Source: Alphaproteobacteria bacterium
Lineage (GTDB): Bacteria > Pseudomonadota > Alphaproteobacteria > Rickettsiales > SXRF01
Direction: 5' to 3'
Assembly (NCBI GenBank): GCA_025362975.1
Contig: JANYES010000003.1
Location: 62,001-126,000, forward strand
DNA: 64,000 bases
Made by a program: the position numbers and the translations under genes. Under the pieces are notes generated by a model, which worked only from the letters and a program-made list of their open reading frames with translations, was not told the origin of the DNA and searched no databases. Shown piece after piece: positions 3,091 to 35,277 of the stretch (positions within the stretch are counted from its first letter, which is position 1; every line of letters begins with the position of its first letter).

Positions 3091-3169
3091 CCGGCGTTAA
3101 GGTTTGCCTTGCCCGCTTGGGGATTTTACCTTAAAAACTAGGCATTCCACAGCTGAGCGAAGGTGCACC

Positions 3170-3634
3170 ATGAAACTGGTAGATTTAGGCAACGGCACGG
3201 TGAATGCTGATAATATCACGTTCCTTGAACCGTATTCGGCGGAGGACGCCATCCCCGTTAAAACGCGCGTGCATTTTTCCAGCGCGAATCAGGAGCATGG
3301 GTTTTCGCGCGATCCGATGATTATTGAAAGCAGCGTGAAAGACATCGCAGACAAAATAAACGCGCCTACGAAATGGGATAAGCAGCCGCATTTGCTGCTG
3401 GCGGGTGACATCGCGTTTAATCCGGAGAAGGTGACGTATTTCGAAGAGATCGCAGGAAGTTCTGAGGACAAGCCGAAAACGCGGATTCATTTTACCGGGC
3501 CGCAGCTTGATACCGTGTACCGTGAAGATGTGCTGGTGTTGCCGGTATCGAAAGAGGATTTGCGCGAGCAGATCGAATTCTTCATGCGCGTCGGCGGGTA
3601 TATCGATAAGCTGCGTAACGAGCGCAACGCTTAG
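3170..3634 (+). CDS. Hypothetical protein with internal two-fold duplication
   Basis: Internal ATG at 3170 gives MKLVDLGNGTVNADNITFLEPY...; two gapless ~52-aa repeats with shared KTRxHF core. Confidence 0.7.
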   Translation: MKLVDLGNGTVNADNITFLEPYSAEDAIPVKTRVHFSSANQEHGFSRDPMIIESSVKDIADKINAPTKWDKQPHLLLAGDIAFNPEKVTYFEEIAGSSEDKPKTRIHFTGPQLDTVYREDVLVLPVSKEDLREQIEFFMRVGGYIDKLRNERNA

Positions 3635-5001
3635 CGCGGGCGCCAGATTTCAACTAGTTTTGTTTGTTCTGCTGAGTAGTAGCGCGCGTGGATTGCTGCG
3701 AGCATTTCGGGAGTCCAGCGTTCGCTGCGTAACGGCACTTCGCCCATTAAAATCATTTGGAATTTTGCGCTTTTAATGTCGTGGATGAAATCGTCCTGCG
3801 ACCACAGGTTTTTGCGGCTGAGCTGCGTCATTTCGAACGGCTCCAGGTAGATGGGTTTTCCTGCGAGGATTAGCATTCCCATGTAATCGTCGGCCAGTAC
3901 GATGCCGGGTTCGTCTTCTATACTGCGCTGCAAAGCGAGCATGGCGGATTCATTGCTGCGCAGGAAATGATGGTAGGGCGAAGTGATTAGGAAATAGCTG
4001 TAGAGGGCGAGTTGTGCGAGGGTGATGGAGCTGCCGAGCGCGGGGCGGTGGGTGAAGACGATGCCGGTGAGCAGCGCGAGGGCGATTTGGAACTCAGCGA
4101 AATAACCATAATTCGCGCCGATTTTTCCGGCTGCACTCGCAGCGATGCAGGCGAACATAAGATAAAGGGTGCAGAAGCGTTTGCTGTCGCGCGGCAGGCC
4201 GGATTGCCAGAGCTTGGGGATGGTAAGCGTAGCGATGGCGGATTGCATGTAGGCGATTTTGAAATAATCCAGCGCGCGTAAGGGAGAGTAGTCGAGGAGG
4301 TTGGCGGTGATGATGTTGAAGAGGTAGCCGCCGTGGGTGAGGTGCTGCATGAGCAATAAGATTAACGCGGCGAAGAAGGCAAGGGCAGCAGCTTGGCCGA
4401 TGGCTTGTTTAGGTTTGCGTTTCAGCAGGTGGAAACAGAACAATGTGGCGGGTGCGGTGATGGCGTAGGTGAGCTTGGTGTGGATGGCTAGCGCGAGTAG
4501 CAGGGCGCTTAGGATGCTGCGTTTTGGGGTAGTGGCGGTGAGGCCGGTGTAGAGGCCCGCGAGGCTTAGGGCGAGGGCGAGCGGGTCGACGCGGTAGAGG
4601 GGCATGCCAGCGCTGACGAGCGGGGCGGAGAAGGTGAGGATGGTCGTGATGATTCGGGCCTGTTTGCTGCCGGTCAGGAAATGGGCGATGCACCCTGCGA
4701 AGAAGGCGGAGGCGAGTGTGCTGAGCGTGCTGATTAAGCGGCCAGTGAACAGGCCGGGGAAGGGGTATTGCAGCGCATAGTAAAGCGGGCCGTAATTGTT
4801 GATGGTGTAGGGAGCGCTGGTGATCTCGGGCGGGTAGATGTTGTGGCCTTGGGCGAGACGCAGGGATTGGTCGAGGACGGGGCCTTCGCTGTAATAGACG
4901 CTGATGGGCGAGCTTAGGTCTGTAGCGTAGTTATAGCTTAGCAGCAGTAAGGTTGCGGCGAGCAGGGGCAGTAAGAACCGGTCAGAAAGACGCAGGCTCA
5001 C
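3631..5001 (-). CDS. Multi-TM GT-C / ArnT-like glycosyltransferase family membrane protein
   Basis: Long hydrophobic ORF; N-terminal YSEGPVLDQSLRLAQGHNIYPP...NNYGPLYYALQYP resembles GT39/GT-C mannosyltransferases. GTG start at 5001 overlaps the parC TGA stop. Confidence 0.65.
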   Translation of the reverse strand: MSLRLSDRFLLPLLAATLLLLSYNYATDLSSPISVYYSEGPVLDQSLRLAQGHNIYPPEITSAPYTINNYGPLYYALQYPFPGLFTGRLISTLSTLASAFFAGCIAHFLTGSKQARIITTILTFSAPLVSAGMPLYRVDPLALALSLAGLYTGLTATTPKRSILSALLLALAIHTKLTYAITAPATLFCFHLLKRKPKQAIGQAAALAFFAALILLLMQHLTHGGYLFNIITANLLDYSPLRALDYFKIAYMQSAIATLTIPKLWQSGLPRDSKRFCTLYLMFACIAASAAGKIGANYGYFAEFQIALALLTGIVFTHRPALGSSITLAQLALYSYFLITSPYHHFLRSNESAMLALQRSIEDEPGIVLADDYMGMLILAGKPIYLEPFEMTQLSRKNLWSQDDFIHDIKSAKFQMILMGEVPLRSERWTPEMLAAIHARYYSAEQTKLVEIWRPR

Positions 5002-7226
5002 GAAAACGTATTCGTCCTGGGGAAGCCGACCGGGGGCAGGCGTCCGGCATCGGCGCGGTTGCCGACCCACTGTTTCAGATCGGTTTCGACGCGGGTTTTG
5101 CCGCCCAAAGCCCAGCTCAGGCCATCCTTCAGGGTGAAGGTTTTGATGTCCGAGAGGCCACCGTCTTTGTATTTTTGCAGCGTGACGCCCTGACCTTTTT
5201 TCATCGGCGGGATTTGCGACTGCGGGAAGATGAGCAGCTTGCGGTTATCGCCTATGATGGCGACGTGGTCGCCTTCTACGGGAACGCAGGCGACGGCGCG
5301 GGCACCTTCAGTCGGGTTCAGGATTTGCTTGCCGCTGCGAGTTTGCGCCATCACTTCGCTGGCTTCGACGATGAAGCCTTTACCGTTGGAGGAGGCAACG
5401 AGCCAGTTGGTTTTTTCGTCGTAGGTGGTGATGCTGACGATGTCGGCGTCGTTGTCGAGGTCGATCATCAGGCGCACCGGCTCGCCCTGACCTTTGCCGC
5501 GCGGAATCTTATCGGCCTGTATGGTGTAGAAACGGCCGTCCGATGCGAACAGGAGAATTTTGTCGGTGGTGAAGGCATGGAACTGAAATTTCTCCTCGTC
5601 GCCCTCTTTGTATTTGATGTCGGACGTGTCGACGACATGGCCTTTGACGGCGCGAATCCAACCCATTTTCGAGCACAAGACGGTGATCGGCTCTTTTTCG
5701 ATAAAGGCTTCGATGTCGATGACGGTGCCGGCAAGGGGGGCGTCGGCGAAGATGGTGCGGCGTTTGCCGAGCGCGGTTTTGCCGCCGAAACGGGTTTTGA
5801 TATCGGTGATTTCGTCTGAGATGCGCAACCAGAGTTTTTCCGGTGATTTGAGCAGCGCTATAAGTTCTTTTTGCTCTTTGATGAGCGCGTCGTGCTCACC
5901 GCGGATTTCGAATTCTTCGAGTTTGCGCAAACTGCGCAGGCGCATGTTGAGGATGGACTCGACCTGAATGTCGGTAAGATTCCATTTTTTCATCATGATG
6001 GGTTTCGGTTCGTCCTCTTCGCGGATGATGCGGATGACTTCGTCGAGGTTCAGGTATGCGATCAGCAAGCCGCCGAGGACTTCGAGGCGGTGGGCGATTT
6101 TGGCGAGGCGATAATTGGTGCGGCGCACGAGCACGTCGAGGCGGTGGTCAAGGAAGGCGAGCAGGATTTCCTTGAGGTTCATCACGCGCGGGGTGCCGGA
6201 GGCGTCGAGAACGTTCAGGTTCATGTTGAAGCGAGTTTCAAGGTCGGTGACTTTGAACAGCGATTCCATGAGGGTGTCGGGGTCGACGGAGCGGTTTTTT
6301 GGCTCTAAGACGACGCGGATTTCTTCGGCAGATTCGTCGCGGATGTTGCCCAGCAGGACGAGTTTCTTTTCCTTGAAAAGGTCGGCGATTTTTTCGATGA
6401 GGCGGGATTTCTGGACCTGATACGGGATTTCGGTAATCACGATCTGGTACATGCCGTGGCTGAGTTCTTCTTTTTCCCATTTGGCGCGGATGCGGATAGA
6501 GCCTCGGCCGGTTTCATAGGCCTGCATGATGTTGGCTTCTGGCTCGACGATCAGCCCGCCTGTGGGGAAGTCCGGGCCGGGAATGCGTTTGACGAGTTTT
6601 TCAACGGCGCAGTCGGGATGCTGGATCAAGTAGTGCAGCGCGTCGCAGATTTCGCCGACATTGTGCGGGGGGATGGAAGTGGCCATGCCTACCGCGATGC
6701 CTTCGGAACCGTTGGCGAGCAGGTTCGGGAAAGCGGATGGGAGGACGACGGGTTCTTCATCGAGCCCGTCATAGGTGGGGCGGAAACCGACCGTGTCTTC
6801 GTCGATGCCGTCGAGGAGCGTCATGGCGATGTCGGTGAGGCGGGCTTCGGTGTATCGCATGGCGGCGGCGTTGTCGCCATCGACGGAGCCGAAATTGCCT
6901 TGGCCGTCAACCAGCGTGTAACGCACCGCGAAGACTTGCGCGAGGCGCACCATCGCTTCGTAAATCGATGCGTCGCCATGCGGATGGAATTTACCCATAA
7001 CGTCACCGACGACGCGGGCGCATTTTTTATAGCCGGATTTGGGATCGAGCTTGAGTTGCAGCATGGCAAACAGCAGGCGGCGATGCACTGGCTTTAAGCC
7101 GTCGCGCACGTCGGGCAGCGAACGCGAGGTGATGGTGCTGAGCGCGTAAGCTAAGTATTTTTCTTCGAGCGTGGTGCGGAAGGAGACGAGGTTGATTGTG
7201 TCTTCTTTTTTAGGCTTCAGCGCCAT
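4998..7226 (-). CDS. parC: DNA topoisomerase IV subunit A
   Basis: [55 protein letters not shown]; full-length GyrA/ParC family, 742 aa. Confidence 0.95.
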
Positions 7227-9870: not shown

Positions 9871-10689
9871 TTAGCCGACGAGTTGCAGGAGCGCCGGGCT
9901 GAGCTTGTTGCCCTGCGCGAGCAAGGCGATGGCGGCGTTCTGCAGGATCGAGGCTTCGTCCTTCGTGGTGGACGCGGAAGCAAAATCGGTCTCCGACAGG
10001 GTCGAGCTGGCGGCTTCCTGATTATTGATTGCGGAATCGACGTTCGCGGAAGCAAAGTTGAGCGACTGCTGGAAACTGCCGATAGTGGCGCGCACGCCGG
10101 TGATTTCGCTGAGCGCGTTGTTGACGGTGCTGAGTGCCTGACCGGCGGTGTCGGCGGACAAGATGTTGGGTGAACCGGGCAGCAGGCTGCTGGCGCTTAA
10201 GGAGCTGATAGACAGCGAATCGTTGCCGGAGGAATTGCTGCCGAGCAAGCCGTCGATGGAAAGCGAACTGCCGCCGCTTAAGCTGCCGTCGAGAAGATTC
10301 TGGCCGCCGAAAGAGGTGTTGTTGGCGAGCTGGTTGATTTCACTGACAAGGGCAGTGAATTGCTGGTTGAGATCGGAACGGGTCGAAGCGTTGAGCGTCG
10401 GCGAATTCGCCTGCTGCGCGAGCGACTGGAGCTGGATCAGCACGTTCTGGATTTGTTCGGAGCCGCCATCTGCGACCTGTGTGATGCTTGACGCCTGGGC
10501 GAGGTTGCTCGAAGCCTGGCGGAGTGTGGAAACCTGGGACTGCAACTGAGTTGCGGTGGAAAGAGTCGTAGTATCACCATTGCTGCCGCTGACGATGCTT
10601 GAGATCGCTGCCTGCAGCTTACTACTTGCTGTGCGGATGTTCTGCGATTGTGTTAAACCGCCAACTCCTGATAATGAACCTATTGTCAT
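9871..10689 (-). CDS. Flagellin-like protein
   Basis: N-terminal coiled-coil (QNIRTASSKLQAAISSIVSGS...) and C-terminal coiled-coil (VRATIGSFQQSLNFASANVDSAINNQEAASSTLSETDFASASTTKDEASILQNAAIALLAQGNKLSPALLQLVG). Confidence 0.8.
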   Translation of the reverse strand: MTIGSLSGVGGLTQSQNIRTASSKLQAAISSIVSGSNGDTTTLSTATQLQSQVSTLRQASSNLAQASSITQVADGGSEQIQNVLIQLQSLAQQANSPTLNASTRSDLNQQFTALVSEINQLANNTSFGGQNLLDGSLSGGSSLSIDGLLGSNSSGNDSLSISSLSASSLLPGSPNILSADTAGQALSTVNNALSEITGVRATIGSFQQSLNFASANVDSAINNQEAASSTLSETDFASASTTKDEASILQNAAIALLAQGNKLSPALLQLVG

Positions 10690-11764: not shown

Positions 11765-13024
11765 TTAGGCGGCGAGGACTGCGCCGTGCAGTTGCGTGGT
11801 GTCGGCGCTGGTGACTTTGGCTTGGACGAGGCTGCCGGGTTCGCAGGCGCGGTCAAGGGTGATCATGGCGAAATGTTCGGTGCGGCCGAGGTTTCCTTTT
11901 TCGACGATGACTCGTTCGGTGCGGCCGATACGCGAGTGCAAGGTAGTGGCGAGTTGTTTTTCGCCAGCGACGCGCAGTTGTGCGGCGCGGTGCTTGCGGA
12001 TTTCTTTTTCGACCTGCGGCATTTTGGCGGCGGGGGTGCCGGTGCGGGCGGAATAGGGGAAGACGTGGAGGTAGGTAAGTTTGGCTTCGTCAACCAGCGC
12101 TAGGGTGTTGGCGAACATCTCGTCGGTTTCAGTGGGAAACCCTGCGATGATGTCGGCGCCGAAGACGACGTCGGGGCGCAAGGAGCGGACTTTTTCGACG
12201 AAGTCGAGCGCGTCCTGGCGCAGGTGGCGGCGTTTCATGCGCTTGAGTACCATGTCGTCGCCGGCTTGCAGGCTGATGTGGATGTGGGGCATGAGGCGCG
12301 GCTCAACCGCCAGTAATTCGTAGATGTCGTTGTCGACTTCGACGGCGTCGATGGAAGACAGGCGCAGGCGCGGGAGGTCGGGGACGAGGGCGAGGAGGCG
12401 TTTCATCATCTGGCCGAGCGTCGGCGCGCCGGGCAAGTCTTTGCCGTAATCGCTGATGTCGACGCCGGTGAGCACCACCTCGTTGAAGCCGTTGGCCACG
12501 AGGGCGCGGACTTCCTTGACGATATCGCCCATCGGCACGGAGCGGGAATTGCCGCGGCCAAACGGAATGATGCAAAAGGTGCAACGGTGGTCGCAGCCGT
12601 TCTGGACCTGCACGAAGGCGCGGGCCTTGCCTTCGAAAGAAGTGACCATGTGAGAGGCGGTTTCCTTCACCGACATGATGTCGTTGACGAGGGCTTTTTC
12701 GGTGTTAGCGAGGACGAATTCGTAGCCGCGTTTTTCGAGCTTTTCCTGATTGCCGAGCACGTGGTTGACTTCTTCCATGCCGGTGTACATTTCGGGGTGG
12801 GCCTGCGCGGAGCAGCCGGTGACGATGATTTTAGCGTCCGGGTTGGCTTTGCGGGCTTTGCGGATGGCTTGACGGACTTGGCGTTCGGCTTCGGAGGTGA
12901 CGGCACAGCTGTTGAAAATGATGGCATCTTCCAGCCCGGCTTCGTGGGCTTGTTGCTTGATGACTTCGCCTTCGTAGCTGTTAAGGCGGCAGCCAAAATT
13001 GACGACCGAAACGCCTTTGGTCAT
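11765..13024 (-). CDS. mtaB: tRNA (N6-L-threonylcarbamoyladenosine(37)-C2)-methylthiotransferase
   Basis: Radical SAM CDHRCTFCIIPFGRGNSRS and N-terminal MTTase motifs FGCRLNSYEGE, NSCAVTSEAERQ. Confidence 0.93.
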   Translation of the reverse strand: MTKGVSVVNFGCRLNSYEGEVIKQQAHEAGLEDAIIFNSCAVTSEAERQVRQAIRKARKANPDAKIIVTGCSAQAHPEMYTGMEEVNHVLGNQEKLEKRGYEFVLANTEKALVNDIMSVKETASHMVTSFEGKARAFVQVQNGCDHRCTFCIIPFGRGNSRSVPMGDIVKEVRALVANGFNEVVLTGVDISDYGKDLPGAPTLGQMMKRLLALVPDLPRLRLSSIDAVEVDNDIYELLAVEPRLMPHIHISLQAGDDMVLKRMKRRHLRQDALDFVEKVRSLRPDVVFGADIIAGFPTETDEMFANTLALVDEAKLTYLHVFPYSARTGTPAAKMPQVEKEIRKHRAAQLRVAGEKQLATTLHSRIGRTERVIVEKGNLGRTEHFAMITLDRACEPGSLVQAKVTSADTTQLHGAVLAA

Positions 13025-13923
13025 TGCACTGCTTCCGGGGTTTCGACGTAGGCCATGCCGTTGAATTCAACCTGAACCGGGCCATGCAGGAAGACGTGGC
13101 CATCTTTATCCAGCCGCGCCATGAGGGTTTGGGTGGTGGGAGGATTTTGCAGGGTGAGCGTGTGGTATTTGTCCGCGCTGAGGAGGTCGCGTTTCACCGC
13201 GCCGATTTTAACGGCGCAAGCAGCGGTGCCGCATGACGCGGTGAGGCCGACGCCGCGCTCCCAGACGCGCGCAAGAATTTGGCCAGAAAGCTGATTGCCG
13301 GCGACGTAGGCGATGCTGACATTCACGCCTTTGGGGAAGAGCGGATAACGCTGGAGCTGCGGGCCGATTTTTTCGATGCGGTGAATCATTTCCGGGTCTG
13401 GCACGAAGAAGACGACGTGCGGATTGCCCATGCTGACGCAGAACGGGTCGGACAGGCCTTCCATTTCAAGCGTGACGTGCAGCGTGTTCATCGGTTGCGA
13501 CAGCGGAATTTCCTGCCAGCCGAATTTGGGGGTGCCCATGTTGGCGGTGACGAGTCCGGTGGCTTCTTTCCAGCCGTGAAGGCTGGCGCCGAACAGGTTG
13601 ATTTCGCAGTGCAGGATATCGGCGTTGGTTTGCACACGGGCATTGCCCACATGCTTTTCCTGCATGACGAGCCAGCCGATGCAGCGCGTAGCGTTGCCGC
13701 AGGCGTTGACTTCGGAACCGTCGGCATTGTAGATGCGCATGAAGACGTCGGCGTCACTGCTAGGTTCCATGACGATAAGCTGGTCGCAGCCCTTGGTTTG
13801 CGGATGATCGCGCGAGGCGAGCGCGCGCACCTGCTGCGTGGTTAAACGCACAGGCTCTTGGCGGGCATCGATGACGACGAAATCGTTACCGGCCCCGTTC
13901 ATTTTGGTGAAAGGGATATTCAT
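13021..13923 (-). CDS. dapF: Diaminopimelate epimerase
   Basis: KMNGAGNDFVVID, NADGSEVNACGNATRC, GVGLTASCGTAACA. Confidence 0.95.
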   Translation of the reverse strand: MNIPFTKMNGAGNDFVVIDARQEPVRLTTQQVRALASRDHPQTKGCDQLIVMEPSSDADVFMRIYNADGSEVNACGNATRCIGWLVMQEKHVGNARVQTNADILHCEINLFGASLHGWKEATGLVTANMGTPKFGWQEIPLSQPMNTLHVTLEMEGLSDPFCVSMGNPHVVFFVPDPEMIHRIEKIGPQLQRYPLFPKGVNVSIAYVAGNQLSGQILARVWERGVGLTASCGTAACAVKIGAVKRDLLSADKYHTLTLQNPPTTQTLMARLDKDGHVFLHGPVQVEFNGMAYVETPEAVQ

Positions 13924-14045
13924 GCAATGAATTTACCAAGAAATCACGATTTTGCAATGGCTTCTGGCTTTAATTAACTCTTCGCTTGGTTTGTGCTATA
14001 TTAAGTAATATAATCAGGATGTTATACTTTTAAACCGACGGGTAT

Positions 14046-14642
14046 ATGGAATCTCCGATCTATTATTCTTATCTGCTGAACCATCTTGGCGCCAAAGAGG
14101 ATGAAGCGGCGATGCAATTCCAGGCCAAGGTCAGGGGCACGTTTTCCAAGCTTTTCCAGACCATCCCAATGCCGCCGGAGGTGGAAAAAGCATTGCCGAT
14201 TGTGATGAAGGAATTTCGTGATGCATCGCACAATACCGGTTATAGCCCAATCAGCAAATTGCGCGATGAGACGTTTTCGCTTGTGAGGATGGAGGCGTTG
14301 ATCCAGGAGGGGGAGTCAAATTTCGTGCGCGCGGTGTATGACGCAATGGCGACGGAGCCGGGGCATTTGCAGGAGCAGAAACTGCGCCACATGCAAGATG
14401 TGCGCAGGCAGCTGGCGGAACTTTACACGGAGACCGAGCAGACGCGGTTGCAAAGCAACACGGCACTCACGCCGATGGAAAAGGAAGCGATGTTGGCGAT
14501 GACGGAGTGCATGGAGGGGCTACTATGCGGCGGGGTGAGCGCGTTTGCGCTGAACACGCTGAAGGCGCATAAGCTCATCGGCGAGCAGGTGAAGTCGGGG
14601 AAGCTCTATGACGCGGTCGATCGGGGCGGTGTGAAAATCTAA
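14046..14642 (+). CDS. Hypothetical protein
   Basis: 198-aa ORF filling a gap between minus-strand genes; no family recognised. Confidence 0.55.
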   Translation: MESPIYYSYLLNHLGAKEDEAAMQFQAKVRGTFSKLFQTIPMPPEVEKALPIVMKEFRDASHNTGYSPISKLRDETFSLVRMEALIQEGESNFVRAVYDAMATEPGHLQEQKLRHMQDVRRQLAELYTETEQTRLQSNTALTPMEKEAMLAMTECMEGLLCGGVSAFALNTLKAHKLIGEQVKSGKLYDAVDRGGVKI

Positions 14643-14644
14643 GC

Positions 14645-15052
14645 TCAGACGCCCAGCGCGGCGTCTTTGTAGTGCTTGGTGTTTTCGACGCGTTTGGCCC
14701 AATCAGGGGCATGTTCGTGGCGGTTCATCTGGATGAGATGCTGAGCGATCTGGTCAAATATTTCTTTTACATCGGGATTGTCGACGAGGCGTATTGGCGT
14801 ATTGCTCTCGTGGATTTGATAGATGGCAATGGTGATGAGGCTGTCCTGACGGGCGATATGCTGGTCGTAGTTTTCGCCTTCAATCGCGGGCATGATGTTG
14901 TGCAGGTTATCGAGATAGTCGCGAAGCTGGTTCAGTTGGTAAGCGTTTTCGCTCTGGCCGATGATGATGAAGACTTTGTTGGTGAGGGATTCCGGGTTGC
15001 GCGGGGAAGCTTGCGTATCATCCTTGCCGGTAATGTAGCTGCGCCAGCTCAT
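14645..15052 (-). CDS. Hypothetical protein
   Basis: 135-aa ORF directly abutting the parE stop; no family recognised. Confidence 0.6.
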   Translation of the reverse strand: MSWRSYITGKDDTQASPRNPESLTNKVFIIIGQSENAYQLNQLRDYLDNLHNIMPAIEGENYDQHIARQDSLITIAIYQIHESNTPIRLVDNPDVKEIFDQIAQHLIQMNRHEHAPDWAKRVENTKHYKDAALGV

Positions 15053-17034
15053 CAGACGTCGAGCTGTTCCAGAATATCTCCGCCGCGATTCGCCGTCTGT
15101 TCCTGAATGAAGTTGAAACGGTGCTCGGGTTTGCGGCCCATGAGTTGCTCGACGCGCTCTTTGGTGGGGTCGATGTCATCGTCCTGAATTTTGACTTGGA
15201 GGAGGATGCGCGTGCCGATCTGCATGGTGGTTTCTTTGAGCTGGGGTGGGGTCATTTCACCTAAGCCCTTGAAGCGACCCTGCTCGATTTTGGAATTGTG
15301 CTTGGCGTTTTTAGCAATGATGTCGGCGCGTTCTTTTTCGTCCTGCGCGTAATAGGTCGTCGTGCCGATGGTGATGCGGTAGAGCGGCGGGCGAGCGAGG
15401 TAGAGATGGCCGTTGGTGATGAGGTCTGGCATTTCCTGATAGAAGAAGGTCATGAGCAGCGAGGCGATATGCGCGCCGTCAACGTCGGCGTCGGTCATGA
15501 TGATGACTTTTTCGTAGCGGAGGTTGTCTTCGCTGTAGTGCGATCCGGTGCCGCAGCCGAGCGCGAGCATGAGGTCGGCGAGTTCCTGATTGGCTTTGAT
15601 TTTGTCGATGGAGGCGGAGGCGACGTTCAGGATTTTGCCGCGAAGCGGGAGCACCGCTTGCGTGGCGCGATCGCGCGCCTGTTTGGCGGAGCCCCCGGCG
15701 GAATCGCCTTCGACGATAAAGATTTCGGTGCCGATATTTGCGGAACTCGTGCAGTCGGCGAGCTTGCCGGGCAGGCGCAGGCGTTGCGTAACGGATTTGC
15801 GGCTGGTTTCCTTATCGGCTTTGCGGCGCATGCGGTCGTCGAGGCGTTCGACGATGTTGACCATTAGCTTGCCGGCGTTTTCAGGATCGCCGGTTAGATA
15901 GTGATCGAAATGATCGCGCATGGCGTTTTCGACTAAGCGCGTAGCTTCGGCACTGACGAGGCGGTTTTTTGTCTGCCCTTGGAATTGCGGCTCTTTGTAG
16001 AACAGCGACAAAATGATGACGGCGCCGCCAAGCATATCTTCGCCCATCGACTGGCCGATTTTTTTATTGGCGGTCAGTTCGCCGTAAGCCTTGATGCCTT
16101 TGGTGATGGCGGAGCGAAGGCCGGATTCGTGAGTGCCGCCGTCTGGGGTGGGGATGGTGTTACAATAGGTGCTGACATAGGTTTCTTCGTCAGTCGGCCA
16201 ATGCACGGCCCATTCGACGCGGCCCATTTTGCCCGCGAGATCGGCGTCGCCGAAGAACGGCTCGGCAACGATGGTATTGCGGCCTTCGAGATGCTGGGTG
16301 AGGAAATCACGCAAGCCGCCGGGGAAGTGGATGGTTTCTTCGGTGGGGACGGTTGAACCTTCGGCCAATAGCGCAGGGTCGCATTTCCAGCGAATTTCGA
16401 CACCGCGATAGAGGAAGGCTTTGGCGCGGGCGAATTTGTACAGGCGTTCGGGCCTGAATTTGGCTTTACCGAAAATTTCATGGTCGGGACGGAAGGCGAC
16501 GGTGGTGCCGCGGCCTTTGGCGTCTTGCCCGACGGTCTGGATTTTGGTGGTGGGTTCGCCGCGTGAGTAGGACTGGCGGTAGACCAGCTTATCGCGCACG
16601 ACTTCGACTTCGAGATAATCGGCCAAAGCGTTCACCACGGAAATACCGACACCATGCAGGCCGCCGGAAGTTTCGTAGGCTTTGCCCGCGAATTTACCGC
16701 CGGAGTGCAGCGTGGTCAGGATAACTTCAAGGGCGGATTTTTTCGGGAATTTCGGATGCGGGTCGACGGGGATGCCGCGGCCGTTATCGCGCACGACGAT
16801 GATATTGTCTTCGCGCATTTCGAGTTCGATCTTGTTGGCAAAACCCGCGACCGCTTCGTCCATAGCGTTATCGAAAACTTCGCTCACGAGATGGTGCATG
16901 GCGGTTTCGTCCGTGCCGCCAATGTACATGCCGGGGCGGCGGCGGACGGGCTCGAGGCCCTCTAAAACTTCGATGTCCTCAGCCGTGTAGGACTGATTTT
17001 TCAGAGTCTGTTTGCTGGTAAAAAGATCGCTCAT
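15052..17034 (-). CDS. parE: DNA topoisomerase IV subunit B
   Basis: AEDIEVLEGLEPVRRRPGMYIGGTDE..., EGDSAGGSAKQARDR, MTDADVDGAHI; start MSDLFTSKQ at 17034. Confidence 0.95.
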   Translation of the reverse strand: MSDLFTSKQTLKNQSYTAEDIEVLEGLEPVRRRPGMYIGGTDETAMHHLVSEVFDNAMDEAVAGFANKIELEMREDNIIVVRDNGRGIPVDPHPKFPKKSALEVILTTLHSGGKFAGKAYETSGGLHGVGISVVNALADYLEVEVVRDKLVYRQSYSRGEPTTKIQTVGQDAKGRGTTVAFRPDHEIFGKAKFRPERLYKFARAKAFLYRGVEIRWKCDPALLAEGSTVPTEETIHFPGGLRDFLTQHLEGRNTIVAEPFFGDADLAGKMGRVEWAVHWPTDEETYVSTYCNTIPTPDGGTHESGLRSAITKGIKAYGELTANKKIGQSMGEDMLGGAVIILSLFYKEPQFQGQTKNRLVSAEATRLVENAMRDHFDHYLTGDPENAGKLMVNIVERLDDRMRRKADKETSRKSVTQRLRLPGKLADCTSSANIGTEIFIVEGDSAGGSAKQARDRATQAVLPLRGKILNVASASIDKIKANQELADLMLALGCGTGSHYSEDNLRYEKVIIMTDADVDGAHIASLLMTFFYQEMPDLITNGHLYLARPPLYRITIGTTTYYAQDEKERADIIAKNAKHNSKIEQGRFKGLGEMTPPQLKETTMQIGTRILLQVKIQDDDIDPTKERVEQLMGRKPEHRFNFIQEQTANRGGDILEQLDV

Positions 17035-17165
17035 ATGACAGGTAATAACAGGAAAATAGCCGATTACAAGGGTTTTACGCAGTTGCGATGGCATTAAAAG
17101 AATGTTAATGCTCGAGCTGTAAAATTAACGAATTCACCGAGGCTTACCACAGGGAAACTGGAACT

Positions 17166-18047
17166 ATGGAAATTGTTGAAGCAATCGACGAACTGAAAAA
17201 AACAATAGGCATTGCCTGTAACTCGACGGGCCCTGCCGGAACGCCGAAACAGAAGGAAGAATTCACCAGCCTCGGCAACGATATCTCCGCGTCGTTGACA
17301 TCGTTCCAGCCCGAAGTCAGGCCGCAGGACAGGAGCATCCACACGTTTGTTCCCGGCGCGGCTTTACCGGAAGGCGAGGAAGCGCCGCCGCCAGTTACGG
17401 GCGGCAGGGTGCGTATCACATTCGTAGGTGGCCAGCAGCCCGAAGCGGCGCGCACGCTCGACAGTATCCTGACGCCGATCATCAATGAAGCGCTGGGCAC
17501 CGACACTGGCCAGCACCGTTCACGGCTTGGGAAGACAACAGATCGTATCATGGATTTTCGCATCCCAACCCAAGTGGCGGGTAATTTTGTCGATCATGTC
17601 ATCGAGGTGACGAATCGGATCAAGGCGACGCCGGAGTTGCGCAAGCAGTTTCAGGCAGGGATTGAACTCAGCATAGAGCACATCAATAAAATCGATGGGC
17701 CGAAACCTTACATCGAGTTGAATCTGGGCAAGGGTTATGAGCTGAAGGACGGCGTGCCTGATTTGAAACCGCCGCATTTCACGCTGAAAATTTCCGGTAC
17801 ACCGTTACCTCTGGCGCGCACACTGGCAGAGGCGGTGGGTAATGACGTGGAGGATTTTCCCAATACGATCCAAACCACCAATCGCGACCATACAAAAACC
17901 TATGAAGGCGGCAAGGAATTCAAAATTGCGCTGGATAGCCCGAAAGTGCCCAAAGCGTTTGAAGCTATTAAGCAATATGTGCGCATTATGAACGAGTATC
18001 GCGCCAATCCCGGGCAAGGGCAGGGCAGCGGCGGGCCGGGCATGTAA
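17166..18047 (+). CDS. Hypothetical protein
   Basis: 293-aa ORF; no family recognised; Gly-rich C-terminus. Confidence 0.55.
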   Translation: MEIVEAIDELKKTIGIACNSTGPAGTPKQKEEFTSLGNDISASLTSFQPEVRPQDRSIHTFVPGAALPEGEEAPPPVTGGRVRITFVGGQQPEAARTLDSILTPIINEALGTDTGQHRSRLGKTTDRIMDFRIPTQVAGNFVDHVIEVTNRIKATPELRKQFQAGIELSIEHINKIDGPKPYIELNLGKGYELKDGVPDLKPPHFTLKISGTPLPLARTLAEAVGNDVEDFPNTIQTTNRDHTKTYEGGKEFKIALDSPKVPKAFEAIKQYVRIMNEYRANPGQGQGSGGPGM

Positions 18048-28371: not shown

Positions 28372-29091
28372 CTAGCGGTCTTGCAATTTCTGAGCTAGCG
28401 CATTTTGCGCGGGCGTAAGTTGCACGCCGGTGGGTTTGGAACGGTAGAGGGCAGGGTCGATGAAGGCGGTGATTTCGCGCGTGCTTGGCATCTCGATGCG
28501 GCGCACGCCGAGTTCGGCGAGTTGCTCGTAAAGCGAATGCGTGGTTTCCACCGGATTGGCCAGAAGATCACTGTGGCGGAGGTAGATTTTAGGGATGTCG
28601 GCGGTATTGGCGATGATGCCTTCAGCGTAAACCTGCCACAGTGCAAGAGCTTTTTCTACGGGAAAACCGTCCCTTTTTTGCAACGATAAGGCGATTTCCT
28701 CGGGCGCGCGGTGGACGATGACGGCGATGGGTACTTCAAGATGCGGCCGCCATGCCGGAAGCGTCAGGCACAGGCGCGGGTCTTTGAGCACCCACGGGCG
28801 GAAAGCGTCCAAGCCGAGGGCTATTTTAGCGATTGCAGACCGTATGTTATCAGGAATTTTGGCGGCTTCGGATGCCTTCCAGCGGGCCAGATCGCTCCAG
28901 CTACAGCCTTTGGAGGCCAGCAAGGCCTCGTTTAATTTAAAAACTTCGGGCCGCTCCCAGAATCCTTTTGGATTATTGATGGTTATCTCTCCAACGCTCG
29001 ATTCCGGGCCGAAATAGGCGCCCATAATGTTAATTAATCGGGTGGTGAGCGAAGTGCCCGAACGGTGCATGCCGAGGACGATAATTTGCAT
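28372..29091 (-). CDS. Sulfotransferase family protein
   Basis: MQIIVLGMHRSGTSLTTRLINIMG (5'-PSB-like loop), WVLKDPRLCLTLPAW. Confidence 0.8.
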   Translation of the reverse strand: MQIIVLGMHRSGTSLTTRLINIMGAYFGPESSVGEITINNPKGFWERPEVFKLNEALLASKGCSWSDLARWKASEAAKIPDNIRSAIAKIALGLDAFRPWVLKDPRLCLTLPAWRPHLEVPIAVIVHRAPEEIALSLQKRDGFPVEKALALWQVYAEGIIANTADIPKIYLRHSDLLANPVETTHSLYEQLAELGVRRIEMPSTREITAFIDPALYRSKPTGVQLTPAQNALAQKLQDR

Positions 29092-29193: not shown

Positions 29194-32100
29194 ATGGCCA
29201 ATACCTACACACTCTGGATAGTCTCGCCACCCGACCTCATCTGGTCGCACGTGTTCGACGAGGTGGCGCTTGCGCTGAAATCGGCTTTCAGGGAGCTGGG
29301 CTACGAGGTGGAGATCGTTACTGACCCGAAACAAATTCAGGGCACGGCGATTGTGTTCGGGGCGAATCTCTGCTCGATGAATAAAATCGCACTGCCAGCG
29401 GATGCGGTGATTTATAACCTTGAGCAGGTGCATCCCGATTCGCGCTGGTTCCAAAAGGATTACGGCTATATTGAACTATTGAAAAAACACATTGTCTGGG
29501 ATTTCAGCGAGCGCAATATCGAGAATTTAAAGCCGTTCGGCATTGAGAACGTGGTGCACTGCGCCATCGGCTACGCGCCGGAGTTGACGCGCGTGCGCAA
29601 GCATAAGGAAGATGTCGACGTGCTGTTTATCGGCGGCGGCCATCCGCGCCGCCAGAAAATTATGGACGGTATCAACGCGGGCGGGGCGCGGGTGCATCAG
29701 GTGTACAAGGTATTTGGCAAGGAGCGCGACGAATGGATGACGCGCGGGAAGATTCACCTGAATCTGCATAAGGAACCGGCGGAGCTATTCGAGATTGTGC
29801 GTGTATCGTATCTGCTTTCGAACAAGTGTTTCGTGGTGTCGGAGAATACCGCAGATACCAAAATGATGGAGCAATTCCGCGATGCGCTGGTGTTCTGCCC
29901 GTATGACAAGTTGGTGCAGCAATGCCTGCATTATCTGGTGCGACCCAAGGAGCGCAAGCAAATTGCCGAAGCCGGGTTCGAAATTTTCCGCAGCATGCCG
30001 CAGAAGGAATATCTCGCGCAGGCGCTGGAAGGATATCGTAAGCTGGCGGCCAGGCAGCCGCGCATGCCGAGCGTAAAAACCGCGCTGCCAAAGATTTTTG
30101 TGGCGATTGCAAGCTACCGCGATCCGGAGATCGTGCCCACGATCAACAGCATTTTTTCCAAGGCGAAACACCCGGAACGGATTGTGTTGGGCGTGTGTTT
30201 GCAGGCGGATGAGAAGGAAGACCCTGATTGCCTCGTGAAAACCGACAGGCTGCCGGGGCAGGTGAGGCTGAAGCAATATCATTATTCCGACAGCAAAGGC
30301 GCAAATTGGGCGCGCGTCGAGGCGTTCAGCATGATGGAAGATGAGCAGTATGCGCTGCTGATCGACAGCCATATGCGGTTTGTGGCTGGCTGGGATGAGG
30401 CGATGATCGAGATGCTGGGGCAATGTCCGGCGGAAAAACCCGTGCTTTCCAGTTATGTGCCGGATTACAGGCCGCCGAACCGGCTGATTGACCATGAGGG
30501 GTATACGCTGCGCACGCGTCTTAAGCGCTTCGGCAACCCCGACGACCCGCGGCTGTTGCATATCAGCGGCAGGCTGGTGAATAATAATGACCCGCGCGTC
30601 AAGGAGCTGTACCCTACGCCGTTTGGCGTGGTTAACTTTGTATTTGCGCCCTCTTCGACGTTCAAAGACGTGCCGATCGACCCCCATATTCACTTCTGGG
30701 GCGATGAAATTAACTTTGCCGCTCGACTCTGGACGCATGGCTATGATATTTTCCAGCCCAATCGTACGGTTTTGTACCATTACTGGGTGCGCAAAGAACA
30801 GTTCCACCAGCACGACTACCGGAAGTATTTCACGCCTGAAAATATCCGGTCGCTGGAACGTATCAAGCATGTGCTCGGCTTTGAAAAAGCGAAGGACGCG
30901 CTGGCGCTGGTGGATATTGAGAAGTATGGGCTCGGTGACGAGCGGCCGCTTCAGGGATTATGGGATTTTGCCGGGATAGACTGGAATAAACGCACTACAG
31001 AAGTGAATTCGGAAGAAGGAATATGGAATATGGCAGCGCGGGATAAATCAATCGGTAAGAATGCGCCGAAGAAAACGAAAGTATCGCTAAGCGATAACAC
31101 CGTGACAGTGAGCGAGAAGAAGCGCCGTATTTTTGTGCAGATCGCCAGCTACCGCGACCCGGAATGCCAGTGGACGGTGAAGGATTTGTTCGAAAAAGCC
31201 GAGCATCCGCAGAGCATTACGGTTGGGATTTGCTGGCAGTTCGTAAAGGGTGAAGACGATATTTGTTTCCGCGAACCGTATCCGTATCCCGATCAGGTGC
31301 GGGTGCATGAAGAGGATGCGCGCACGGGCCAAGGTGTGTGTTGGGCGCGCGGGCTTACGCAGAAATTATGGCAGGGCGAGGAGTTCACCTTCCAGATCGA
31401 CAGCCATATGCGCTTCGAGCAGGGCTGGGACCAGATTCTGCTGAACCAATATGATGAATGCGTGCTGGAGCATGGCAATAAAAAATCGGTCCTGACGAGC
31501 TATCCGCCGGGGTATACGCCGCCGAACGAATTGCAGAAGCAATTTTATTTCGGCATGAGCGCCAAGCAATTCGACAAAAACGGCATTTTCCTGATGATCG
31601 GCGCTCCGGCATTCGAGCCGGGAAAAACCGACCCGGTGAAGCCGATTCGCGGGGCGTTTGCCAGCGCAAACATGTTGTTCGGGCCGTCCAGCCTGATTCA
31701 TGACGTGCCGTATGATCCGTATCTGTATTTCTTCGGCGAGGAGGTGACGCTGGCGGTGCGCCTGTGGACGAATGGCTACGATTTATACCACCCGAATCGT
31801 CTTGTGATCTACCACGACTGGAACCGAGGCAAACGCCGCACGCATTTCGAGGATTGCCGCGACTGGGGCAAGCTGAACGAGCGCTCCTTCGCGCGTGTGC
31901 GGCATCTGCTGCGCACGGAGGCGTCGGACAGGGCCGAGGTGTTGCAGGATATTGAGAAATATGGCCTCGGGCGCGAACGTACACTGGAGGAATACCAAAC
32001 CTATGCGGGCGTTAATTTTGCGCATCGCAACATTCAGGAATCGGCGTTGAAGGGTGAATTTGGCGCCTATATTACGCCGCATGAGGAATCGCACAAGGAA

Positions 32101-35100
32101 ACCGCTGTGGTGGTGCCGTTTGTGCCGCCGCTCCGCACTGTTTTTAATGATGGGCGCCGCCCGAAAATCTTCATCAACATTGCCAGCTATCGCGACCCGG
32201 AATGCCAGTGGACGGTGAAAGATTTGTTTGAAAAAGCGACCTACCCCGACCGCATCAATGTCGGCATCTGCTGGCAGTTCGACCCGCAGGAAGATAAGCA
32301 TTGCTTCGAAGTGCAGACACGACCCGAACAGGTGCGCGTGATGCCGGTGAACTGGCGCGAAGCCGAGGGCGTGTGCTGGGCGAGGCACCAGACGCAGCAG
32401 CTCTGGGAAGATGAAGAATACACGCTGATGATCGACAGCCACATGCGCTTCGTGCCCGGCTGGGACGAGCTTATGATTCAGGAGCTGGATGCCTGCGAAT
32501 CGTCCAAGCCGCTGCTATCGTGCAGCCCGACGCCCTATGTTCCGCCAAATAAATTAAGCAACCGCATGAACCCGACGATTCGCCGCGTGCGCCAGTTTAT
32601 GCCCGACGGGAATATTCGTTGCCAGGGTGAAATGCTGGATCGCGCGTCGCCGAAGCCGCTGCGCGGCGCGTTTTTAGTCGCGAATTTTATTTTTTCGCGC
32701 TCGAATATCACGCCGGAAGTGCCGTATGATCCGTTCCTGTATTTCGATCAGGAAGAAATCAGCTACGCGGCGCGATTGTACACGCATGGCTGGGATGTGT
32801 TCAGCTCGCGCACGCAGTTCCTGTATCACTTCTATAACGATAATAAAGTGCCGACAGGCTCGGTGCGCCCGCTGCACTGGCGCGATTTGCATAAGGAAAA
32901 TGAAAAGCGGATTCACTTCCTGCGCGACCGCGGGTTGAAGCGATTTAACCATATGACAGGGCATACGGCGTCGCACGACCCGGAAGTGACGCAGCAGCTG
33001 GACCGTTACGGTTTCGGCAATGTGCGCAGTTTCGATGAGTATCAGGCGTTTTCGGGCGTTGATTTTAAAAACAAGGTGGCGACGGAACGGGCGCTGCGTT
33101 GCCAGTTTATCCCGGATTTGCACCTTTATCGCAACCAGCCGATTCATGTGCCGGAGCTTGACGGACCGGCGAATAATAACCCGCCAAAGCAGGCAGCGCA
33201 GGCACCGGTGACGCCGCCGCCGCAAACGCCGCAGCTTCCGGGCATTCATCACACGTTTAAAATGCTCGAACCCGGCGATTTCTTCCCGCTGGTAGAAATG
33301 GACGACACGAACAGGAAAGTGCGCGCGATCGAGATGTTTGCGGGCAAGTTTACCAATATCTTTTACCTGCCATCGGACCAGCCAGAATTTTTGAAGCAAT
33401 TCTTCGACTGCATCGAGCGTGAGCTGGGTGCGGCGGGTGTGCGCGATGCATGGAACATATTTATTCTGGACGATACGCCTGAGAAGCTGATCGAGCTTAA
33501 ACAAAGGCTCGGCACATCGGTTACGATGCACGCCGATCCGGGCCGCGCGATTGCGCGTGCGTTCGGCATTGCGCGCGCCGGGGAAATCGTGGTGCCGGTG
33601 GGGTTCGCGCTGTCGCCGAAATTGCAGATCGAGCGCCGCCAGATCAACACCAACGCGCAGATGCTGGCGCATTTATTTGCCAAGGATTGCGCTGAGGTAA
33701 TCAATGCGTATAAAAACAAGAACAGCACGGCGGGTATCGTAACCGAAACCGCACCGGCCATCATTGTGCCCAATACGTTTTCGCCTGAGTTCTGCGCTAA
33801 GCTGATTCATGCGTTCCGTAACGGCCGCACGTTCGACGGAACGGTCGGGGCGATGGAAACCAAGGCGTATCGCACCGATATCAAAGTGCGGACCGACTTC
33901 ATCCTTGAAGGCGATTTGCTGGCAGAGGTAGATGAGAAACTTTCGCGGTCGTTTTTCCCGGAGATCAAAAAGAATTTCGGATTTAATGTCACGCACCGTG
34001 AGCTGTACAAAATCGGCATGTACTCAGGCGAAAAGCAGGGATTTTTCAAGCAGCACCGAGATAATTTCGATGCGCCGCTCGGATATCGCCGCATTGCCAC
34101 GACGGTCCATTTGAATGATGAATACGAAGGCGGCGGTTTGCGCTTCCCGGAATACGGGGACACGACCTACCGTCCTGTGGCGGGCAGCGCGATTGCGTTT
34201 TCGTGCGGCACGATGCATGAGGCAAAGCCGGTCACCAAGGGCGAGCGCTTTGTGCTGGTGGGTTTCTTCCACGGGGAAGAAGACGAGGCGTATCGCCTAC
34301 ATTTCTATGGCAGCAAAGGCCAGCCGCTGCGCATCAAGGATTACCAACCGACTTTGCGCCAGTATCCCGATGTGCGCCTGAGCCGTGGGTTCTACGATAA
34401 ATGGGCGAAGGAAAACATCAGCTACAACAAAAACGAAATCGGCATGCAGGCCAACACGCAGGCGCAACAGCCCGGCAAGGTGATTACCCCGCCTTCGAAA
34501 CCTCGCGGTGTCATGATTAACTTGCTCGGCCAGCATCAGGCCAAGAAAGTATTCGAGTCGAAACAGGCCATTATTTTCGACGATTTCCTGCCGGAAGATA
34601 TTTACGGCGCGGTCAACAATTTCGCGTTGACGACGGATTATGAGCGTATCAACGCCCACGGCAAATCGGTGCGCGCGTGGCACATTCACGACGGGTTCCC
34701 GCTGCGCACTTCCAAAAACGCGTTTTACCATGCGAAAGACATGGAGCATCCGCAAAGAAGCGAGAAAAACAGCTATCCGACAAACCTGCCGTTTGACCGT
34801 TTCATCGACCATATCCTTGCCGTGCAGCCGCATGTCGAGCATATGGTAGGTAAGCAGACGGAGACCTGGGAGCATTTTTCGGTGACTGGCTGGATGTATC
34901 CGCCGGGGACCGGGCTTGCCATGCATGATGATGGTTCGGGCGTGTATTCCGGGGCATATGTCTACTTCCTCAACCCCACGTGGCGTCTGCACTGGGGCGG
35001 GCTGTTGTTGCTGGCCGACGAAGAGGCCAACGAGCAGGTCCATAAATACCGTAACTCCGTGGATCAATACGATTATTACCAGCGCAAATGGCTCCACCAG

Positions 35101-35277
35101 AACCCGTTAGACGATATGCTGATGGATCAGGGCTTCGCCCAATGCGTGCTGCCGAAGCGCAACCGCATGGTATTTATTGCCAATGATGCCTATCACATGG
35201 TAACGAGGGTGAACGAACAGTGCGGCGACAATTACCGGATGTCGCTGGCCGGGTTCTTTAACCGCAGGAAAAAATAG
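29194..35277 (+). CDS. Giant multidomain protein: CgeB-like glycosyltransferase + 3x GT60 (Skp1-GlcNAcT-like) + thioredoxin/peroxiredoxin-like + 2x 2OG-Fe(II) oxygenase
   Basis: 2027 aa. GT60-like repeats begin near nt 30091 (KIFVAIASYRDPE), 31126 (RIFVQIASYRDPE) and 32164 (KIFINIASYRDPE), each with DSHMRF..GWD. Redoxin-like region ~33265-33720 (LEPGDFFPLVEMDD). P4H-like region ~33751-34300 (FFKQHRDN...GGLRFPEYG...MHEAKPVTKGERFVLVGFF). Second 2OG-Fe(II)-like region ~34567-35274 (MHDDGSGVYSGAYVYFLNPTWRLHWGGLLLL...DAYHMVTRVNEQCGDNYRMSLAGFF). Confidence 0.85.
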   Translation: MANTYTLWIVSPPDLIWSHVFDEVALALKSAFRELGYEVEIVTDPKQIQGTAIVFGANLCSMNKIALPADAVIYNLEQVHPDSRWFQKDYGYIELLKKHIVWDFSERNIENLKPFGIENVVHCAIGYAPELTRVRKHKEDVDVLFIGGGHPRRQKIMDGINAGGARVHQVYKVFGKERDEWMTRGKIHLNLHKEPAELFEIVRVSYLLSNKCFVVSENTADTKMMEQFRDALVFCPYDKLVQQCLHYLVRPKERKQIAEAGFEIFRSMPQKEYLAQALEGYRKLAARQPRMPSVKTALPKIFVAIASYRDPEIVPTINSIFSKAKHPERIVLGVCLQADEKEDPDCLVKTDRLPGQVRLKQYHYSDSKGANWARVEAFSMMEDEQYALLIDSHMRFVAGWDEAMIEMLGQCPAEKPVLSSYVPDYRPPNRLIDHEGYTLRTRLKRFGNPDDPRLLHISGRLVNNNDPRVKELYPTPFGVVNFVFAPSSTFKDVPIDPHIHFWGDEINFAARLWTHGYDIFQPNRTVLYHYWVRKEQFHQHDYRKYFTPENIRSLERIKHVLGFEKAKDALALVDIEKYGLGDERPLQGLWDFAGIDWNKRTTEVNSEEGIWNMAARDKSIGKNAPKKTKVSLSDNTVTVSEKKRRIFVQIASYRDPECQWTVKDLFEKAEHPQSITVGICWQFVKGEDDICFREPYPYPDQVRVHEEDARTGQGVCWARGLTQKLWQGEEFTFQIDSHMRFEQGWDQILLNQYDECVLEHGNKKSVLTSYPPGYTPPNELQKQFYFGMSAKQFDKNGIFLMIGAPAFEPGKTDPVKPIRGAFASANMLFGPSSLIHDVPYDPYLYFFGEEVTLAVRLWTNGYDLYHPNRLVIYHDWNRGKRRTHFEDCRDWGKLNERSFARVRHLLRTEASDRAEVLQDIEKYGLGRERTLEEYQTYAGVNFAHRNIQESALKGEFGAYITPHEESHKETAVVVPFVPPLRTVFNDGRRPKIFINIASYRDPECQWTVKDLFEKATYPDRINVGICWQFDPQEDKHCFEVQTRPEQVRVMPVNWREAEGVCWARHQTQQLWEDEEYTLMIDSHMRFVPGWDELMIQELDACESSKPLLSCSPTPYVPPNKLSNRMNPTIRRVRQFMPDGNIRCQGEMLDRASPKPLRGAFLVANFIFSRSNITPEVPYDPFLYFDQEEISYAARLYTHGWDVFSSRTQFLYHFYNDNKVPTGSVRPLHWRDLHKENEKRIHFLRDRGLKRFNHMTGHTASHDPEVTQQLDRYGFGNVRSFDEYQAFSGVDFKNKVATERALRCQFIPDLHLYRNQPIHVPELDGPANNNPPKQAAQAPVTPPPQTPQLPGIHHTFKMLEPGDFFPLVEMDDTNRKVRAIEMFAGKFTNIFYLPSDQPEFLKQFFDCIERELGAAGVRDAWNIFILDDTPEKLIELKQRLGTSVTMHADPGRAIARAFGIARAGEIVVPVGFALSPKLQIERRQINTNAQMLAHLFAKDCAEVINAYKNKNSTAGIVTETAPAIIVPNTFSPEFCAKLIHAFRNGRTFDGTVGAMETKAYRTDIKVRTDFILEGDLLAEVDEKLSRSFFPEIKKNFGFNVTHRELYKIGMYSGEKQGFFKQHRDNFDAPLGYRRIATTVHLNDEYEGGGLRFPEYGDTTYRPVAGSAIAFSCGTMHEAKPVTKGERFVLVGFFHGEEDEAYRLHFYGSKGQPLRIKDYQPTLRQYPDVRLSRGFYDKWAKENISYNKNEIGMQANTQAQQPGKVITPPSKPRGVMINLLGQHQAKKVFESKQAIIFDDFLPEDIYGAVNNFALTTDYERINAHGKSVRAWHIHDGFPLRTSKNAFYHAKDMEHPQRSEKNSYPTNLPFDRFIDHILAVQPHVEHMVGKQTETWEHFSVTGWMYPPGTGLAMHDDGSGVYSGAYVYFLNPTWRLHWGGLLLLADEEANEQVHKYRNSVDQYDYYQRKWLHQNPLDDMLMDQGFAQCVLPKRNRMVFIANDAYHMVTRVNEQCGDNYRMSLAGFFNRRKK

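Follow-up and report, generated by a model that had tools for sequence, protein, structure and literature searches.

A bacterial fusion protein of GT60 glycosyltransferase and 2-oxoglutarate-Fe(II) oxygenase domains as a candidate enzyme for coupled protein hydroxylation and O-glycosylation

The pairing of hydroxylation with glycosylation is already known from several systems, including the PhyA/Gnt1 modification of Skp1, the protein LH3 (PLOD3), and the mimivirus protein L230. In Dictyostelium and Toxoplasma, a 2-oxoglutarate (2OG)-Fe(II) oxygenase and a glycosyltransferase of family GT60 take part in the same modification of a cytoplasmic protein, and the GT60 enzyme acts on the hydroxyproline of Skp1 (PMC11570480). 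LH3 and L230 carry a 2OG oxygenase and a glycosyltransferase on one polypeptide, and L230 has both hydroxylase and glycosyltransferase activities (PMC9546862). Another GT60 enzyme, TcOGNT1 of Trypanosoma cruzi, is a uridine diphosphate N-acetylglucosamine (UDP-GlcNAc):polypeptide alpha-GlcNAc transferase that modifies Thr residues in mucin-like proteins (PMC9472816), and HMW1C of Haemophilus is a dedicated bacterial enzyme that glycosylates the exported adhesin HMW1 (PMC2877744). Here we describe a gene in a stretch of 64,000 nucleotides (hereafter “the window”) from an alphaproteobacterium of the order Rickettsiales (assembly GCA_025362975.1, contig JANYES010000003.1, positions 62,001 to 126,000), which encodes on a single polypeptide a GT-B glycosyltransferase domain, three GT60 modules, a redoxin fold, and two 2OG-Fe(II) oxygenase domains, OXYa and OXYb. 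We consider it probable that this fusion protein is a cytoplasmic modular enzyme with a protein target, which it both hydroxylates and O-glycosylates, and that the product is probably sulfated.

An earlier note, made from the sequence of this DNA alone, took the Skp1 enzymes as its precedent. The chemistry of that comparison stands, but the closest precedents on one polypeptide are LH3 and L230. The Skp1 pathway uses separate proteins with a single GT60 module and has Skp1 as its acceptor, whereas the window encodes one polypeptide that also includes a GT-B domain, a redoxin fold, and two oxygenases, and its relatives have three or four GT60 modules. Although the OXYa profile matches LH3, both LH3 and L230 use other glycosyltransferase families, act on collagen Lys, and have no GT60, redoxin, or second oxygenase domain; the fusion protein is not of their type, its glycosyltransferase domains being GT60 and PF13524. 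TcOGNT1 likewise belongs to GT60, yet it is a eukaryotic Golgi enzyme, and no fused oxygenase is described for it in PMC9472816. HMW1C resembles a locus discussed below (L213), where a GT60-oxygenase gene lies beside an exoprotein of two-partner secretion (TPS) and its transporter FhaC, but HMW1C is an unrelated glycosyltransferase that attaches N-linked hexose to Asn and has no oxygenase. We found no report of this fusion architecture, of a bacterial GT60-oxygenase fusion, or of a prokaryotic association between GT60 and Pro/Thr-rich proteins in the open-access literature, a scope outside which most subscription journals lie.

The open reading frame (ORF) begins with an ATG at 29194, and its stop codon ends at 35277; it encodes 2027 amino acids without internal stops. 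Because long homologues (2081, 2456, and 2009 amino acids) are present in other genomes, the frame is no assembly artefact. Pfam and the exact coordinates bear out the single frame with three GT60 and two oxygenase domains that the earlier note had read here, with the following parts:

29194-35277, plus strand: the whole fusion ORF (GT-B, three GT60 modules, redoxin fold, two 2OG oxygenases), from its translation, Pfam, and long homologues
29194-30069, plus strand: CgeB-like GT-B glycosyltransferase domain, residues 1-292
30085-31053, plus strand: GT60 module 1, class A, residues 298-620, DSHMRF at 30364-30381
31123-32088, plus strand: GT60 module 2, class B, residues 644-965, DSHMRF at 31399-31416
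32161-33183, plus strand: GT60 module 3, class C, the most conserved, residues 990-1330, DSHMRF at 32434-32451
33184-33249, plus strand: Pro-rich linker from GT60 module 3 to the redoxin fold, residues 1331-1352
33256-33717, plus strand: redoxin-fold domain without the catalytic Cys, residues 1355-1508, from the family profile against peroxiredoxins
33718-34488, plus strand: OXYa, 2OG-Fe(II) oxygenase, residues 1509-1765, PF13640, HxD at 34054-34062, distal His at 34216-34218, Arg at 34246-34248
34513-35274, plus strand: OXYb, 2OG-Fe(II) oxygenase, residues 1774-2027, PF13661, HxD at 34924-34932, distal His at 35194-35196, Arg at 35236-35238

The three GT60 modules are the best-defined part of the protein. 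Pfam finds three copies of PF11397 (GlcNAc), each in two pieces and each far above the cut-off of 21 bits, with a total E of 2.2e-199. The ASYRDP motif stands at residues 306, 651, and 997 of modules 1, 2, and 3, and DSHMRF at 391, 736, and 1081, confirming the three tandem modules with an ASYRDP start that had been noticed before; all three have the DxH metal motif, a variant of the DxD motif described for GT27 and GT60 (PMC7185993). Each module also has a later acidic (D/E)E motif (HFWGDE, YFFGEE, and YFDQEE) and a C-terminal His. By family membership, the modules would be retaining enzymes that transfer GlcNAc from UDP-GlcNAc to a polypeptide. There was no structure with sequence similarity to prokaryotic GT60 in the copy of the PDB that we searched, and an AlphaFold2 model of module 3, built from 42 sequences, reached a predicted local distance difference test score (pLDDT) of 95 and a predicted template modelling score (pTM) of 0.93. 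Its best fold matches are the GT27 polypeptide GalNAc-transferases (E 6e-9, with TM-scores of just about 0.5-0.6), and KfiA and TarP/TarS appear lower in the list. The model thus predicted has a GT-A fold related to that of GT27. This is consistent with the literature, which sets GT60 next to GT27 and gives both families the same mode of Ser/Thr O-glycosylation (PMC7185993), and with the action of TcOGNT1 on mucin Thr (PMC9472816).

In a maximum-likelihood tree, the GT60 modules form position-specific classes that span genera: A (100/99), B (97/90), and C (100/99). Class C is always the last module, adjoining the redoxin fold, and its neighbours in the tree are GT60-oxygenase fusions of other lineages, the viral L076 (96/74) and L052 (92/80; L-numbers denote loci and G-numbers genomes, G000 being that of the window). 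Class B, including module 2 of the window, groups with L177 (95/90), a protein in which GT60 is fused to a prolyl 4-hydroxylase (P4H) and a tubulin-tyrosine ligase (TTL). Since the classes span genera, the modules are not recent tandem copies, and their age argues that each module has been kept for its own job.

The C-terminal third is shared with simpler proteins. The AhpC-TSA match in the window protein (17.3 bits) lies under the cut-off, but the family profile matches solved peroxiredoxins (3drn, E 3.1e-8). Its motif reads IFYLPSDQPEF, and the usual peroxidatic Cys is absent from all family members and from the aligned stand-alone relatives. The earlier note saw this absence correctly, but it is no peculiarity of the fusion protein: redoxin-OXYa pairs also stand alone, in proteins of some 350-410 amino acids that are common in Alphaproteobacteria, lack the Cys as well, and have no glycosyltransferase fused to them. 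The family C-terminal profile matches 57 of 289 sampled genomes of the class, mostly through the redoxin-OXYa part. OXYb is rare, being found in two of the 289 besides the window's, and the stronger of these is fused to GT60 (L060/L205, G211). The best PF13640 (2OG-FeII_Oxy_3) match covers residues 1610-1693 of OXYa, and PF13661 (2OG-FeII_Oxy_4) covers 1901-1949 of OXYb. The HxD...H...R residues expected of both modules can be located exactly (H1621-x-D1623, H1675, and R1685 in OXYa; H1911-x-D1913, H2001, and R2015 in OXYb), and the facial triad and the 2OG-binding Arg are kept in every family member that covers the site. The OXYa part of the profile is similar to LH3 (E 8e-6), P4H, and PiuC alike, and OXYb has no significant relative in the PDB. 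No redoxin-OXYa-OXYb relatives were found in viral contigs.

A protein search found related sequence in 11 of the 16 genomes of the same taxonomic family, the window's included. One of them (G001) has the GT-B part only; nine other genomes carry relatives, the complete ones of which have three or four GT60 modules; contig ends interrupt several copies. The homologue survey suggested by the earlier note shows that the domain order, GT-B, (GT60)n, redoxin, OXYa, OXYb, is kept, with n = 3 in the window, L029, L033, and L036 and n = 4 in L028, L031, L032, and L037. The CgeB-like domain that the note had placed at the front is thin in the window protein alone (PF13524, Glyco_trans_1_2, residues 139-266, 27.7 bits, with the cut-off at 25) but is kept at the N-terminus of L029, L030, L032, L035, L036, and L037. 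With it, PF11397 and PF13640 were assigned as the note had expected, and AhpC-TSA, sub-threshold in the single protein, was recovered by the family profile. There are variants: L028 and L031 have an N-terminus without GT-B; in L039 and L040, GT-B is a separate ORF; in L033, its place is taken by about 290 residues that include an SGRSGT loop like that of sulfotransferases, a match too weak to pass the Pfam cut-off; and in L037, GT60 is followed directly by OXYb. It should be mentioned that L038 (G007) has a stand-alone two-module GT60 gene (2078-6591) adjoining three prepilin-like genes with a GFTLIE/GFTLVE motif.

The survey also brought to light a steady neighbour that the earlier note does not include:

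28372-29091, minus strand: sulfotransferase gene, PF13469, divergent from the fusion gene, from Pfam and adjacent homologues in relatives

A homologue is adjacent in L028-L033 and L035-L037; no family locus that extends far enough lacks it, and the 5'-phosphosulfate loop GMHRSGTS (or GMHRAGTS) is conserved. In another family of the order (L221), sulfotransferase genes lie beside a tandem pair of GT60 genes, with PF00685 matching one of them (E 1e-8). The sulfotransferase gene belongs to the system. The remaining flanking genes, lysS-HAD-TlpA-argH-lysA downstream and DUF815 upstream in several genomes, appear to be housekeeping genes kept in synteny.

Fusions of the same two chemistries have arisen in other contexts. 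L052 and the viral contig L076 each join one GT60 to one oxygenase, as do L060/L205, which shares OXYb, and the P4H-GT60-TTL protein L177; all have only one domain of each kind. A second protein of the last type, of 875 amino acids, is encoded at 7045-9672 of L210 (G851), with a P4H-like 2OG oxygenase, GT60, and TTL. GT60 is also fused to an FkbM methyltransferase (L061). Two proteins of about 800 amino acids (L165, 1222-3717; L182, 1-2406) combine GT60 with a methyltransferase; their last 270 residues have no Pfam match and, judged by eye, may be a fold of the polysaccharide-deacetylase type.

The single-domain GT60 relatives point to the kind of target, because they often lie beside Pro/Thr-rich surface or virion proteins. 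In G211 (L205, 8107-13807), the GT60-OXYb gene adjoins two RTX-type proteins, one with collagen-like (GPTGET)n repeats (PF01391, E 1e-13) and the other with (PEPTPT)n. In G112 (L213), two GT60 genes, one of them the GT60-oxygenase fusion, adjoin the TPS exoprotein, which ends in (PEPTPT)n, and the FhaC transporter. GT60 adjoins a 1386-residue protein with (PPVTTQPPETTK)n in G090 (L219) and an RTX protein in G367. A scan for 60-residue segments with no less than 18% Pro and 20% Thr found a protein of this composition in three of the nine alphaproteobacterial GT60 loci outside the family, a small sample; among 23 comparison loci, such a protein occurs in L068 only, itself an Azospirillum GT60 locus. 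There, at 12043-17270, the GT60 gene stands in a contractile-tail cluster, close to a gene whose tail-sheath product contains a (PT)n insert, and in Paraburkholderia (L069, 10016-11419), a GT60 gene lies inside a type VI secretion cluster. Viral contigs hold at least 580 confirmed GT60 matches, and 49 of 80 phage GT60 loci (L076-L155) have a Pro/Thr-rich ORF. Many of these directly precede the GT60 gene (for example, TPTPTPTVTPTPTPTV), and one has RCC1 repeats; it is possible that the (TPTP)n-rich proteins before GT60 genes are glycosylated virion proteins. Within three genes of GT60, Pro/Thr-rich ORFs are found upstream in 26 of 148 cases versus downstream in 7 of 161 (90% dereplication, p = 0.0002). 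Control loci of DNA polymerase and carbamoyltransferase genes numbered three each, which is too few, and stretches elsewhere in the same phages were used instead: in 14 large phages, a Pro/Thr-rich ORF occurs in 9 of 14 GT60 loci versus 3 of 20 such stretches (p = 0.005).

The independent GT60-oxygenase fusions and these Pro/Thr-rich neighbours support the hydroxylation-plus-glycosylation idea of the earlier note, which needed correction in its precedents, in the status of its redoxin, and in its omission of the sulfotransferase. How might such an enzyme work? The two oxygenase domains would hydroxylate residues of the target polypeptide, Pro being the likeliest, and the GT60 modules, each with its own ancient specificity, would add sugars of the N-acetylhexosamine type in alpha linkage to the hydroxylated residues and/or to Thr/Ser. 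Since TcOGNT1 acts on plain Thr, hydroxylation need not come before glycosylation. A further kind of sugar may come from the CgeB-like domain, and the glycan is probably finished with a sulfate group by the product of the divergent sulfotransferase gene. The redoxin fold, lacking its Cys, may serve as a scaffold or binding domain that was inherited together with OXYa. The target would most likely be an exported surface protein that is modified while still in the cytoplasm, as HMW1 is by HMW1C.

Several observations weigh against this reading: (i) no acceptor gene adjoins the fusion gene, which is flanked by lysS, HAD, argH, lysA, and DUF815, and a composition scan of the locus found no Pro/Thr-rich protein near it; (ii) the DxH motif is lost from some GT60 modules of relatives (L028_G1, L031_G1, and L037_G3), and therefore not every module need be active; (iii) the model of redoxin-OXYa-OXYb is poor (pLDDT 49, seven sequences) and was not used for a fold search; (iv) the upstream/downstream contrast in phages weakens to p = 0.03 at 80% dereplication and is not significant at 70%; (v) oxygenases of the kind in the fusion protein occur near phage GT60 genes in only 2 of 80 loci, with no enrichment, which argues that GT60 does not need hydroxylation; (vi) in the genome of the window, (PT)4 stretches do not rise above background; and (vii) PF11397 also covers bacterial GT60-methyltransferase proteins (several genomes of another class; L156 and L165).

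The last point, together with the FkbM fusion, favours a polysaccharide synthase, in which GT-B and GT60 would build a lipid-linked or free glycan (lipopolysaccharide, capsule, or holdfast-like), whose sugars would be modified by the oxygenases and the sulfotransferase, with no protein acceptor. Sulfotransferases and CgeB-like glycosyltransferases are frequent in glycan clusters, and KfiA and TarP/TarS are among the lower fold matches of module 3. Against it, no genes for a polymerase, a flippase, or an exporter and no sugar-nucleotide genes were recognised near the fusion gene, GT60 loci elsewhere adjoin protein candidates, the nearest fold is that of the GT27 peptide transferases, and the characterised eukaryotic GT60 enzymes modify polypeptides (PMC7185993, PMC9472816). 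We regard such a synthase as unlikely.

If the acceptor is a protein, which one might it be? Clear (PT)4 stretches are present in G009, G003, and G011, the last of which has no fusion gene; given also their lack in the window's own genome, the acceptor there is probably not a (PT)n protein. Collagen-like proteins were rejected as the acceptor of the family, with collagen-profile matches in 3 of the 16 genomes, again including G011. Separately, the window's genome has a lipoprotein-like ORF of 123 amino acids with many collagen-like GxT repeats (L216; G000:C15:244720-244896). The window itself encodes a flagellin (PF00669/PF00700) at 9871-10689 on the minus strand, some 19 kb away from the fusion gene, and elsewhere in the genome (G000:C20:212681-213091) is a frame of 1489 amino acids with a flagellin N-terminus. 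A system for glycosylating flagellin or pilin could draw on these genes: in G010, roughly 14 kb separate a flagellin gene from the fusion gene, the flagellin frames are very long, and the two-module GT60 gene of G007 stands beside prepilin-like genes. However, the flagellin is not adjacent, with gyrA, gyrB, mfd, and others around or between, and the family genomes without a fusion gene all have flagellins. Flagellin was accordingly rejected as the acceptor, and this explanation appears improbable.

A housekeeping protein modified in the cytosol as a means of sensing oxygen would make a bacterial counterpart of the Skp1 pathway, and the fixed syntenic place of the fusion gene beside lysS would suit it, as would the making of the Hyp-GlcNAc of Skp1 by a 2OG oxygenase and then a GT60 enzyme (PMC11570480). 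Three or four GT60 modules and a sulfotransferase suggest a larger glycan, however, and the neighbours of prokaryotic GT60 genes point to exported repeat proteins. To our knowledge, bacteria have no Skp1, which also counts against this explanation, and we find it very hard to credit.

Returning to the hydroxylating and O-glycosylating enzyme, we can speculate further, although we hold this extension only tentatively and think it somewhat doubtful. The protein may be a modular assembly line, in which two oxygenases hydroxylate the target protein, four glycosyltransferase domains of fixed, position-specific specificity build a short defined glycan, and the neighbouring enzyme sulfates it, so that the number and class of the GT60 modules would set the glycan of each species. 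The wider GT60 clan of phages and bacteria may represent a prokaryotic mucin-type O-glycosylation system that targets Pro/Thr repeats in virion proteins and surface proteins.

If the hydroxylating and O-glycosylating role is true, hydroxylation-coupled O-glycosylation, which is usually seen as eukaryotic (Skp1 and collagen) or giant-viral, would also exist in bacteria as one self-contained enzyme, and the prokaryotic GT60 enzymes would gain a testable function. From the association of GT60 with Pro/Thr-rich proteins, one may propose a glycosylation system like that of mucins, for which candidate acceptors can be named. Among these, the pair of L205 in G211, with the enzyme and its candidate acceptor adjacent, would offer a compact system for studying the modification of bacterial collagen-like proteins.

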